Assembly: GCF_000012865.1 (NCBI RefSeq)
Contig: NC_007503.1
Location: 1-64,000 of the forward strand
Source: Carboxydothermus hydrogenoformans Z-2901
Lineage (GTDB): Bacteria > Bacillota > Z-2901 > Carboxydothermales > Carboxydothermaceae
Length of the DNA: 64,000 bases
Direction of reading: 5' to 3'
The position numbers were made by a program, and so were the translations under genes. Positions 5,650 to 28,180 of this stretch are shown here, one piece after another; position 1 is the first letter of the stretch; each line of letters begins with the position of its first letter. The notes beneath the pieces were generated by a model. That model was not told where the DNA came from, searched no databases, and worked only from the letters and a program-made list of their open reading frames with translations.

Positions 5650-6340
5650 AACTTTTTTTGCCGAGTTTGGACTGTCAATTGAAAAGGAAAAAATCCAGCT
5701 TTTTGAACGGTATTATCGCTTATTAATATCTGAAAATGAAAAATACAACTTAACAGCGGTAACCGGTGAAGATGAGGTTATCGTAAAGCATTTTCTTGAT
5801 AGTACTGCTGTTCTAATTTACCGTGATCTAACGGATTTAAACGCGGTGGATATTGGAACCGGTGCCGGTTTTCCCGGAATTCCCTTAAAAATTATGGTTC
5901 CGGGTTTAAAACTACTGCTTTTGGATTCTTTAAAAAAACGTTGTCTGTTTCTTGAAAGGGTTGTGCGGGAACTAAATTTAACGAACGTAACGGTAATAAA
6001 CGAGCGCGCGGAAAACCTTGGACGGCAAAAGCCGTTTCGGGAACTTTTTGATGTAACCTTTTCCCGGGCTGTTGCTGAGGTTAGAGTCTTACTGGAGTTT
6101 CATGCTCCACTTTTACGCCTGGGGGGAGAAACTATACTGTTCAAAGGTCCCGGGGTCGATGAAGAATTAAAAAAAGCAGAAAAGGCAGCAAAACAACTGG
6201 GCATGGAGTTAAAAGATGTATATTACTACCGCCTTCCGGGTAACTTTGGAGAGCGCTCACTGGTGGTTTATAAAAAATTGCAAAATACTCCGGAAAATTA
6301 TCCTCGGCGTCCGGGTATTCCGGAAAAGAGACCTTTATAA
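5633..6340 (+). CDS. rsmG: 16S rRNA (guanine527-N7)-methyltransferase RsmG
   Basis: RsmG (GidB) methylates G527 of 16S rRNA using S-adenosylmethionine. The 235-residue protein has the SAM-binding motif [17 protein letters not shown] near residues 74-90 and the family's SRAVAEV segment. ATG 5633 is chosen over GTG 5621 because GTGAGGAT just ahead serves as the ribosome-binding site. The C-terminal tail [14 protein letters not shown] is typical. The gene sits between mnmG and the parS-parA-parB locus, a common origin arrangement. Confidence 0.94.
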
Positions 6341-6347
6341 CTATAAA

Positions 6348-6363
6348 TGTTTCACGTGAAACT
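6348..6363. promoter_or_regulatory. parS: parS site 1 (ParB binding)
   Basis: TGTTTCACGTGAAACT matches the 16-bp Spo0J/ParB centromere consensus TGTTTCACGTGAAACA at 15 positions. It lies between rsmG and parA. ParB would nucleate here and spread to organise the origin region. Confidence 0.92.
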
Positions 6364-6402
6364 TCCGATTGGTCTCAAGATGTATTTTTAAGAAAAATTT
6401 AA

Positions 6403-6418
6403 TGTTTCACGTGAAACA
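6403..6418. promoter_or_regulatory. parS: parS site 2 (ParB binding)
   Basis: TGTTTCACGTGAAACA is a perfect 16-bp palindromic parS site, its start 55 bp downstream of the first and 65 bp before the parA start. Being this close to parA it may also let ParB repress its own operon. Confidence 0.95.
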
Positions 6419-6482
6419 TCAAGAAACATTCCCAAAATTATGTTAAAATATGTTTAGTTAAGTTTTACAGCGGGAGGATAAT

Positions 6483-7247
6483 ATGGGAAAGATTATTGCC
6501 GTTGCCAACCAAAAAGGTGGCGTAGCCAAAACTACTACAGCAATAAATCTGGGGGCAGCCCTGGCATTAGCAGGGAAAAAAGTCCTTCTGGTGGATACCG
6601 ACCCCCAGGCAAACATGACCAGTGGTCTGGGTTTTCCCAAGGAAGGATTGCCGGTAACAATATATGACATGCTGGTGGATGGCTTTAAGGAAGAAGGGGT
6701 TTTAGAAACGGAAATTTCCGGGCTATATCTTATTCCGTCTACGGTGGAATTGGCCGGTGCTGAAATTGAACTGGTTATGCTTGAAGAAAGGGAGCTTCGC
6801 CTAAAAAAAGTGTTGCATCCCTTAAAAGATAAATACGATTACACTTTAATTGATAGCCCGCCATCTTTGGGCCTTATTACCTTAAACGGTCTGGCAGCGG
6901 CAGATACCATCCTCATTCCCATTCAGTGCGAGTATTATGCTTTAGAGGGAGTAACCCAGTTAATAAATACAATTGACCTAGTAAAAAAACGTTTAAACCC
7001 GGATTTAAAAATTGAAGGGGTATTACTTACAATGTTTGACGGTCGGACCAACCTGTCGATTCAGGTAGTAGAAGAGGTAAAGGGATTTTTCAAGGGTTTA
7101 GTTTACGGTACGGTAATCCCGCGCAATGTCCGTTTATCGGAGGCGCCGAGCTACGGCAAGCCCATTTTCTTATATGATCCAAAGTGCCGCGGAGCGGAAG
7201 TATATCATGAACTTGCCAAGGAAGTGATGGAAAGAAATGAAAAATAA
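6483..7247 (+). CDS. parA: Chromosome partitioning ATPase ParA/Soj
   Basis: ParA-family ATPases bind DNA non-specifically and, with ParB at parS, segregate origins; Soj also regulates DnaA. The 254-residue protein has a deviant Walker A (KGGVAKTT, residues 11-18, with K11 the signature lysine), the switch motif DTDPQANMTSGLG and Walker B-like DSPPSLG. Length is that of chromosomal Soj. It follows two parS sites and overlaps parB by 11 bp. Confidence 0.95.
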   Translation: MGKIIAVANQKGGVAKTTTAINLGAALALAGKKVLLVDTDPQANMTSGLGFPKEGLPVTIYDMLVDGFKEEGVLETEISGLYLIPSTVELAGAEIELVMLEERELRLKKVLHPLKDKYDYTLIDSPPSLGLITLNGLAAADTILIPIQCEYYALEGVTQLINTIDLVKKRLNPDLKIEGVLLTMFDGRTNLSIQVVEEVKGFFKGLVYGTVIPRNVRLSEAPSYGKPIFLYDPKCRGAEVYHELAKEVMERNEK

Positions 7248-8097
7248 AAAAGGTTTGGGTCGAGGGTTAAATGCTTTGATTCCCGAGGGAAAAATAAATT
7301 TAGAGCGGGAAAATGGTCTTGTGGAAATTAATGTTGAAAAAATAGTACCCAATCCCAAGCAGCCCCGTACGATTTTTAGCGAGGAAGCTTTAAAGGAGCT
7401 GGCCGAGTCAATTCAAAAGCACGGGGTTTTACAGCCAATCGTTGTCCGAAAAATCGCCGAAGATAAATATGAATTGGTGGCGGGAGAACGTCGCTGGCGG
7501 GCAGCGCAGTTAGCCGGCTTAAAACAAATTCCAGCGGTGGTAAAAGATTTTAGCGATGAAGAAGCAACGGTGGTTGCCCTGATGGAAAATCTCCAACGGG
7601 AAGATTTAAATCCTCTGGAGCAGGCCAAAGCATTAAAGCGTCTTATCGAGGAGTTTGGTTTAACCCAGGAAGAGGTCGCTGAGAACCTGGCTAAATCCCG
7701 CACGTACGTTACGAATCTTTTACGCCTGTTAAATCTCCCTCCGGTAATTCAGGAAATGGTGGAGAAAGGGGAATTGACATACGGCCATGCCCGCACGTTA
7801 TTGGCTTTAGACGATCCCCTTAAAATGAGTGAAGTTGCCCGGGAAATTATCAAGGAGGGACTTTCGGTACGGGCAACGGAAGAATTGGTGAAAAAAATAA
7901 AAAATAGTCCTGAGGTAAAAGTAAGAACCAAACGACAGGTAGCTCCTGAAATCCAGGAAATTGAAGACAAATTGCGAGCCTTTTTTGCAACCAAGGTTGA
8001 AATAAAAAGTACAGCTAAAGGGCGGGGAAAAATCACCATAGAATACTATTCGCCGGAGGAGTTGCAGCGGATTCTTGATTTATTGTATATCGAATAA
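7237..8097 (+). CDS. parB: Chromosome partitioning protein ParB/Spo0J
   Basis: The 286-residue protein starts with KKGLGRGLNALIPE, the ParA-interacting N-terminus typical of chromosomal ParB. The CTPase/ParB-N domain spans about 28-120 (PNPKQPRTIF, VAGERRWRAAQLAG, ENLQREDLNPLEQA), followed by a helix-turn-helix (LTQEEVAENLAKSRTYVTNLLRLL, about 140-165) that reads parS. A C-terminal dimerisation segment ends the protein. Its target sites lie directly upstream of parA. Confidence 0.95.
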   Translation: MKNKKGLGRGLNALIPEGKINLERENGLVEINVEKIVPNPKQPRTIFSEEALKELAESIQKHGVLQPIVVRKIAEDKYELVAGERRWRAAQLAGLKQIPAVVKDFSDEEATVVALMENLQREDLNPLEQAKALKRLIEEFGLTQEEVAENLAKSRTYVTNLLRLLNLPPVIQEMVEKGELTYGHARTLLALDDPLKMSEVAREIIKEGLSVRATEELVKKIKNSPEVKVRTKRQVAPEIQEIEDKLRAFFATKVEIKSTAKGRGKITIEYYSPEELQRILDLLYIE

Positions 8098-26208: not shown

Positions 26209-26291
26209 AGGGACGGTTCTTACAGTGACCATTTTCCGTTATTAAAGACAAAAAAATTGCCAGCGAACAGCTCGCTGGCAGAACCGTCCCT
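26209..26291. repeat. Inverted repeat with GGGACGGTTCT arms
   Basis: AGGGACGGTTCT (26209-26220) and AGAACCGTCCCT (26280-26291) form a perfect 12-bp inverted repeat; the right arm abuts the end of cooS. It shares its GGGACGGTTC arm with the repeats at 37642 and 45051, though its interior differs. Confidence 0.7.
26251..26280 (-). terminator. Terminator of cooS
   Basis: Read on the minus strand, TGCCAGCGA and TCGCTGGCA form a 9-bp stem with a 5-base loop, followed by a run of Ts (As at 26251-26256). It lies inside the larger inverted repeat, 10 bp after the cooS stop. Confidence 0.82.
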
Positions 26292-28180
26292 TAAATACCC
26301 AGTTTGGCGCGGCGGTCGTTGATGTGGGCAAGGATATCATCGGCAACTTTGACGGGGTCGCTCCCCACGGCTATTCTTCCGCCGGTGATACTGGGGAGGT
26401 CCCGGGTTAAAAGTTTTACCAGGTTTGGTGCACCCATCACCGGAGGATCCGGAGCTACATGGGTATATAAGCCATAGGCTAAGGCAAAGAGGGCGTCAAT
26501 GGTAGCTTTTTGTTCCATGTACATGGGAGCGGTCACGGCTACCGGCAAATCGGCGGTGTCAACGTTTAAGGCGTTGGCTAAGGCTGTTACCACTAAAGAA
26601 ATTCGGCCGGTGTCGGTACAGGTCCCAAAAGAAAGTACCGGTGGAATATTTAAGTTTCGGCATACTTCACTAAGTCCTGGTCCGGCTAAGTTTATCGCAT
26701 CCAAATTACAGAGTCCGGCAACTTCAAGGGCATGGTTGCCGCAGCCACCGGATAAGATCAGGATATCCCGCTTAATTAACTCTTTTGCCAGGTTTACGGT
26801 GACGTAGTCCTGAGGACCGTTCTTTAAAGTAGTGCAATTGATAAGTCCAACCGCTCCTTTAATCTTTCCGGCTTTAATAACTTCAATTAAAGGATTTATG
26901 CTGCCACCCAAAGCTTTTAAAATAGCTTCCGGGGTGAAACCGGTGATGGCTTTTTGGATGTTGGCGGGAATTTTGGGGGTAATTTTTCCGTGGCGTTTGT
27001 TTTTAAAGCTGTCAACGGCGATATCAATGATTTTTTGCGCGATTTCCCGAACTTCACTGGGCTTATAGTCAAGGAAATGGTGAATACCCGGAAAACGTAC
27101 CAGCCGGGATACCGAGACTAATGTTGCTCCGTATTTTTCCGCTAAAGGTCCTAAATTGGGCGGTGAGCAGTTCATATCCATCGCCAAGACATCAACGGCT
27201 CCAGTGGCCAACATCGGCTCAATAGTTAGCCAGTTGCCGGTTAGACCCCGGAAAACTTCGTCCTTTTGGAAGCGCTGTACTACTTCCTGGCCGCTTTCAA
27301 TACTGCCGTAAATTCTAAGGCTTTTGGCACCGGCGGCTTTGGCTTTATCCTGGTTTACCGCTTCTTTAGCCGCTAAGATTAAAGCCACCCCGACAAACGG
27401 TTCGTGACCGTTAAAGACGATGTTGATGTAATCCGCATCAAAGATGCCCAGGTCCACATCCATTTCATGGGGCATACCGGTACCAAATAAAATATCCTGC
27501 ACCAGCTCAAGGCCTATCTGGGCACCGTAAATACAGGAAAGTCCGAGCCTTAGTCCTTTAGTTGCTAAGGATACATAATCCCCGTCGACGTTGGTAAGGC
27601 AGCTGGCGGCGGCATCTTTTAGCTCGTGCAGGGGACCGGCCGGATAAATCCCAAGCTTACGCCAGACTTCTTTTCGTTTTAAAGGAGCGTAGACCTCAAT
27701 CATTTTCCCCGGTTCGTCATAGTCCCGGTATAACTCCCAGATTAAAAAGTCGGAAAGACGTACTGCCACATCTTCCGGTTTGCCTTCGGTGTTTAGCTCT
27801 AAATCCTTGGCCATCTGGTAAAGTTTATCTTTATCGGTAATGGTAAAGGGGGTGTTACCGAGAGCGGTCATTTTTAAAGTTTTATAAGCTTCATAGGCAT
27901 GGTAAGTATAGGTTGAAGTACCCATTACGTTTCTTAATAGCATGTAGCGCATTGCCATGCCATCGGCGTTAATTCCGCAGACCCCCAGGGTTGCTCCAAC
28001 CTTTTCGTTTATCCGGCAAGGACCGTTACTGCAGAGCTGACAGGAAACCCCGAGCTCGCAGTAATTGCAGCGGATCTTTTCCTGGGGGTCAAAACGGTCA
28101 AAACAGTTGGAAAGCTGGTCTTCGGCTAATCGCTGATATAGCTCGTTAACCGATGGGTGAATGGACGTTTTTGTAGCCAT
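26291..28180 (-). CDS. cooS: Carbon monoxide dehydrogenase-like protein CooS (CODH-V type)
   Basis: The 629-residue protein has the fold of the Ni-Fe CO dehydrogenase catalytic subunit. Cysteines C38 and C41 (CNYC, a CX2C) suggest a [2Fe-2S] D cluster; C47, C50, C55 and C68 fit cluster B. Cluster C ligands H259, C338, C449, C480 and C521 and K558 are kept. However, the usual GICCTGNE motif reads GSIESGQE, so the cysteine matching C295 of CODH-II is lost, and the HSxHGxH proton-relay motif is replaced around TSTYTYHAYEAY. No electron carrier or maturation gene is adjacent. It matches what I recall as CODH-V, reported to hold a modified cluster without CO oxidation. Start ATG 28180 follows GGAGGAGGT. 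Confidence 0.9.
   Translation of the reverse strand: MATKTSIHPSVNELYQRLAEDQLSNCFDRFDPQEKIRCNYCELGVSCQLCSNGPCRINEKVGATLGVCGINADGMAMRYMLLRNVMGTSTYTYHAYEAYKTLKMTALGNTPFTITDKDKLYQMAKDLELNTEGKPEDVAVRLSDFLIWELYRDYDEPGKMIEVYAPLKRKEVWRKLGIYPAGPLHELKDAAASCLTNVDGDYVSLATKGLRLGLSCIYGAQIGLELVQDILFGTGMPHEMDVDLGIFDADYINIVFNGHEPFVGVALILAAKEAVNQDKAKAAGAKSLRIYGSIESGQEVVQRFQKDEVFRGLTGNWLTIEPMLATGAVDVLAMDMNCSPPNLGPLAEKYGATLVSVSRLVRFPGIHHFLDYKPSEVREIAQKIIDIAVDSFKNKRHGKITPKIPANIQKAITGFTPEAILKALGGSINPLIEVIKAGKIKGAVGLINCTTLKNGPQDYVTVNLAKELIKRDILILSGGCGNHALEVAGLCNLDAINLAGPGLSEVCRNLNIPPVLSFGTCTDTGRISLVVTALANALNVDTADLPVAVTAPMYMEQKATIDALFALAYGLYTHVAPDPPVMGAPNLVKLLTRDLPSITGGRIAVGSDPVKVADDILAHINDRRAKLGI

Follow-up and report, generated by a model that had tools for sequence, protein, structure and literature searches.

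A Carboxydothermus gene product identical to CooS-V, the nickel-free hybrid-cluster enzyme with a carbon monoxide dehydrogenase fold

RESULTS

The gene analyzed here is very probably cooS-V of Carboxydothermus hydrogenoformans, or of an identical strain, encoding a Ni-free hybrid-cluster enzyme that has the fold of carbon monoxide dehydrogenases (CODHs) without their CO chemistry. It was found in a window of 64,000 nucleotides, on the minus strand, where an open reading frame running from an ATG at 28180 to a stop ending at 26291 gives a product of 629 amino acids. In a Protein Data Bank sequence search all 629 residues were identical to those of 7b7q_A, and the same was true for 7b7t, 7b95, 7b97 and 7b9a; the five entries 7B7Q, 7B7T, 7B95, 7B97 and 7B9A are those of CooS-V from C. 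hydrogenoformans, gene CHY_RS00160 (PMC9311411). The finding is true and already known, having been published on exactly the same protein, and the CODH-V structure with a modified cluster that an initial annotation of this DNA had mentioned is the structure of this very protein.

A longer frame starting with TTG was also present, the ATG form being the one that was crystallized, and a good ribosome-binding site (GGAGGAGG) precedes the ATG. The protein scored 483.8 bits with the Pfam Prismane family (PF03063) and 776.3 bits with NCBIfam TIGR01702 (CO dehydrogenase catalytic subunit, cut-off 478), and a contig of C. islandicus encodes a protein that is 97% identical. The same genome has four more genes of CODH type, of which one is split, and in addition encodes a distinct hybrid-cluster protein that is class III-like, matching the description of C. 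hydrogenoformans in PMC9311411.

Cluster residues in comparison with CODH-II

The residues of the active site were compared by alignment of CooS-V with CODH-II, CODH-I and CODH-IV of the same genome. As the initial annotation had read from the sequence, GSIESGQE (residues 292–299) here faced GICCTGNE. Its claim that one cluster-C cysteine is missing was correct for Cys295, with the refinement that its place is taken by Glu295, a residue that coordinates the cluster in its own right (PMC9311411); at the position of Cys294 in CODH-II we found Ile294. The proposed replacement of the HSxHGxH motif by TSTYTYHAYEAY (residues 88–99) held for His93, which has become Tyr91, but not for every histidine, as one of them is kept (His94); His99 and His102 of CODH-II have been exchanged for Glu97 and Lys100. 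Five other cluster-C ligands and the lysine had been taken to be retained and indeed were, with His261 of CODH-II found as His259, with Cys333, Cys446, Cys476 and Cys526 as Cys338, Cys449, Cys480 and Cys521, and with the lysine as Lys558. His561 of CODH-II was replaced by Glu556, two residues ahead of Lys558 as in hybrid-cluster proteins. Every ligand named in PMC9311411 was recovered by the alignment, and the motif pattern is not due to chance, since the identity to a solved structure extends over the full length of CooS-V and the pattern is kept in its relatives. The positions of these residues, and of further features, are given in Table 1.

Table 1. Features of the cooS-V region, with positions in the window
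Feature	Position	Strand	Remark	Basis
cooS-V (CODH-V) CDS	26291..28180	-	629 aa + stop	Identical to PDB 7b7q_A over 1-629; Pfam and NCBIfam matches
Cys38 and Cys41	28058..28069	-	Type III D-cluster (intersubunit [2Fe-2S])	Sequence; role of Cys41, PMC9311411; type III as in group D-1
C47-x2-C50-x4-C55-x12-C68	27977..28042	-	[4Fe-4S] cluster motif (cluster B position)	Sequence; motif named in PMC9311411
Tyr91 codon	27908..27910	-	Replaces acid-base His93 of CODH-II	Alignment; same change listed for structural group D-1
His94 codon	27899..27901	-	Retained (His96 of CODH-II)	Alignment
His259 codon	27404..27406	-	Retained cluster ligand	Alignment; structure, PMC9311411
Glu295 codon	27296..27298	-	Replaces cluster-C Cys295; hybrid-cluster ligand	Alignment; PMC9311411
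Cys338 codon	27167..27169	-	Retained cluster ligand	Alignment; structure, PMC9311411
Cys449 codon	26834..26836	-	Retained cluster ligand	Alignment; structure, PMC9311411
Cys480 codon	26741..26743	-	Retained cluster ligand	Alignment; structure, PMC9311411
Cys521 codon	26618..26620	-	Retained; bears redox-switching persulfide	Alignment; PMC9311411
Glu556 codon	26513..26515	-	Hybrid-cluster ligand at His561 position of CODH-II	Alignment; PMC9311411
Lys558 codon	26507..26509	-	Retained (Lys563 of CODH-II)	Alignment
Intrinsic-terminator-like hairpin and T run	26258..26280	-	Just 3' of cooS-V stop; count of such hairpins in this region not above chance	Conserved in C. islandicus

With 32% identity to CODH-II, CooS-V shares with that enzyme its fold and homodimeric state, the motif for cluster B, the catalytic lysine and all ligands of cluster C but one, but differs from it in having Glu for Cys295, Ile for Cys294, Tyr for His93 and Glu for His561, and in its type of D-cluster. 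The complete cluster-C set of an active Ni,Fe-CODH, five cysteines and one histidine, is broken in CooS-V by the glutamate at position 295. Whereas CODH-II has a Ni,Fe cluster and CO activity, CooS-V has a hybrid cluster and no CO activity. The fold, the TIGR01702 score above cut-off and the retention of five of the six ligands together with the lysine could still be taken to mean that the protein is a true Ni,Fe-CODH whose cluster C is unusual. We find this highly improbable, as the published protein, which was produced in E. coli, contained no Ni and showed neither CO oxidation nor CO2 reduction (PMC9311411), and as a C295E variant of CODH-II was lowered in both Ni and CO activity while its hydroxylamine reductase activity was raised (cited in PMC6344411). 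The earlier inference that CO would not be oxidized agrees with that report of an Fe/S/O hybrid cluster without CO or CO2 activity. The exchange of Cys295 for Glu295 appears to be the key change.

Comparison with hybrid-cluster proteins and structural group D-1

From biochemistry, EPR and crystal structures, CooS-V has been described as a homodimer of CODH fold having a bridging [2Fe-2S] cluster and one [4Fe-4S] cluster per subunit, in which a Ni-free, redox-morphing Fe/S/O hybrid cluster, [4Fe-3S-nO], occupies the place of cluster C (PMC9311411). It resembles hybrid-cluster proteins in this Fe/S/O cluster and its ligand types, as well as in the Tyr-x-x-His and Glu-x-Lys motifs. Both of these signatures were shared by the class III-like hybrid-cluster protein of the same genome (28% identity to CooS-V). 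It is unlike hybrid-cluster proteins in its CODH-type dimer with a bridging cluster and in its lower redox potentials; furthermore, Glu295 was not aligned with the Glu of hybrid-cluster proteins in our sequence alignment, as is likewise stated in PMC10502027. With the Hcp family model TIGR01703 the protein reached 46.8 bits, below the cut-off for membership at 360.8 bits. CooS-V thus works like a hybrid-cluster protein, yet is not a member of that family by sequence.

The features of Ni-CODH structural group D-1 (clade D; PMC6344411) were all found in CooS-V, with no difference between the protein and the group: Glu295 at the first C-cluster cysteine, Tyr91 at the acid–base histidine together with the kept Lys558, and a type III D-cluster, where Cys38 and Cys41 are present and the position of Cys47 in CODH-II is Ser46. 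The active sites of this group were predicted to match those of hybrid-cluster proteins, with CooSV as the modeled example of the group (PMC6344411).

Relatives and conservation of the ligand set

When 399 genomes sampled from the phylum were searched, 85 had a strong relative of CooS-V, and in roughly 60 the relative was at least 54% identical; 76 sequences were compared. More than 60 relatives could be compared over the motif region, and a single one of these departed from the pattern. Full-length relatives of at least 50% identity shared Glu295, Tyr at His93, His261, the four cysteines, Glu561 and Lys563 (CODH-II numbering where it differs), with the exceptions of L099, described below, and of three group D-1 relatives (L067, L068 and L070) having Gln for the otherwise conserved His94. 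Among the relatives sharing this set, which agrees with that of structural group D-1, were proteins from Methanoperedens archaea, Sporomusa, a Desulfurobacterium bin and an Acetobacteraceae bin. That the ligands are conserved in Bacillota, in archaea and in further phyla suggests that purifying selection has been strong. Glu295 was reported as unique to CODH-V of C. hydrogenoformans among the sequences aligned in PMC10502027; in the larger set compared here it was general for the group, in agreement with PMC9311411 and PMC6344411.

Relatives of 41–46% identity had kept Cys295, yet the tyrosine in place of His93 and the glutamate in place of His561 were already present in them; these two changes can therefore occur without the loss of Cys295. 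In an unrooted tree, setting the hybrid-cluster outgroup aside, one branch with a support of 100 parted the Glu295 sequences from those with Cys295. The branch of the outgroup had a length near 10 and the root could not be placed; published scenarios have either a CODH (PMC9311411) or a CooS-V-like protein (PMC10502027) as the first form.

One group D-1 relative of 55% identity (L099; G186:C21:53435-67309, gene 5998-7959, minus strand) had a full-length open frame in which the four hybrid-cluster cysteines were changed to Ser, Gly, Ser and Ser and Glu556 to Asp, with retention of Glu295, His259, the tyrosine and the [4Fe-4S] cysteines. It had a long branch and was the sole such case seen in the family. 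This loss of four cysteines in an open frame may be a new observation, and the gene may either encode a protein that still serves without the cluster or be in decay. For CooS-V itself, the notion of a decaying CODH paralogue without function could draw on its solitary gene and on this one relative, but we regard it as scarcely credible, because almost every relative with an identity of 50% or more retains Glu295, the tyrosine, the histidine, the four cysteines, Glu556 and Lys558.

The group D-1 proteins of Methanoperedens (L045–L051) were about 60% identical to bacterial CooS-V, which suggests transfer of the genes between the domains. In surveys these genes could be tallied as CO dehydrogenases, though their residues predict a hybrid cluster.

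Gene neighborhood

The cooS-V gene is solitary, located between a gene for an MscS-type channel and the divergent rpsF-ssb genes. No conserved neighbor was found among 65 group D-1 loci, where no family occurred in more than about a tenth, and a solitary location is therefore the rule for the group. The most frequent family, seen at 7 of the 65 loci with varying position and orientation, was that of cyclic-nucleotide-binding proteins, mostly Crp/Fnr-type regulators; one such neighbor was rejected as Crp/Fnr, being a DUF2225 protein. Clade D genes have been described as frequently standing alone or close to transcriptional regulators, and as co-occurring with active CODHs (PMC13056359); in Clostridium autoethanogenum, deletion of a clade D gene changed little under standard growth conditions. 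Among candidate promoters and regulator sites of cooS-V none stood out, the number of matches being that of chance, and only the divergent rpsF promoter did so.

Directly after the stop codon, at 26209-26291, an inverted repeat (AGAACCGTCCCT) flanks the terminator-like hairpin. The 12-mer was counted 32 times across the genome, frequently with two copies facing each other in inverted orientation, compared with 0 for a reversed control, and the copy next to cooS-V was conserved in C. islandicus. In appearance the repeat is a palindromic or MITE-like element of dispersed type.

Among the Cys295-containing relatives nearest to group D-1 (L107–L113), genes for a ferredoxin-like protein and an FAD oxidoreductase were often found directly downstream, and in two of these (L108 and L110) the upstream gene fuses a hybrid-cluster-protein-associated domain (TIGR03980) with a nitrite/sulfite reductase-like half.

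DISCUSSION

The hydroxylamine reductase activity named in the initial annotation has been published, but it is very weak, with a kcat of 0.13 s-1 and a kcat/KM of 20 M-1 s-1, and should not be taken as the cellular function; this kcat/KM is about two orders of magnitude below that of typical hybrid-cluster proteins, and also below that of a normal CODH (PMC9311411). Reduction of NO was not above background, and the midpoint potentials were about 300 mV below those of the E. coli hybrid-cluster protein (PMC9311411). The cluster was seen as [4Fe-3S] when reduced and as [4Fe-2S-S*-2O-2(H2O)] when oxidized. Upon reduction the persulfide sulfur of Cys521 enters the cluster and a channel opens, which is closed upon oxidation, and in crystals the cluster was oxidized by hydroxylamine (PMC9311411).

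From these properties CooS-V is inferred to reduce, at low potential, a small and probably oxidized nitrogen or oxygen species, which would reach the cluster only in its reduced state. Against such a reductase stand the very slow turnover of hydroxylamine and the lack of NO reduction detectable above background, and the gene context points to no substrate or partner. It is possible, though doubtful, that the protein is a nitrosative-stress enzyme equivalent to hybrid-cluster proteins, with NO or hydroxylamine as its true substrate. The ligand set and tyrosine shared with those proteins, the oxidation of the cluster by hydroxylamine and the Crp/Fnr-type regulators adjoining some relatives would fit such a role, which is difficult to reconcile with the kinetics and potentials given above and with the genome having its own hybrid-cluster protein.

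The slow turnover, the large and reversible redox-driven rearrangement and the frequent placement of clade D genes alone or near transcriptional regulators, along with active CODHs elsewhere in the genome, could instead indicate a redox sensor or regulatory protein, in which the morphing cluster is a switch and not a catalyst. We consider this unlikely, because a domain search gave no DNA-binding or signaling domain in CooS-V, no partner gene was conserved at the 65 group D-1 loci, and channels lead to the reduced cluster. A broader proposal, which we put forward tentatively and with rather low confidence, is that CooS-V is either a redox-gated switch or a reductase of very low potential, acting on a substrate outside those considered so far, in a role distinct from that of CODHs as well as from that of hybrid-cluster proteins.

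As already published, CooS-V illustrates how one ligand change, from Cys to Glu, in a CODH scaffold accompanies an iron–sulfur–oxygen cluster and the loss of CO chemistry. The group is widespread and routinely annotated as CO dehydrogenase, whereby predictions of CO metabolism can be misled, and for the same reasons the physiological substrate of CooS-V is still worth knowing.
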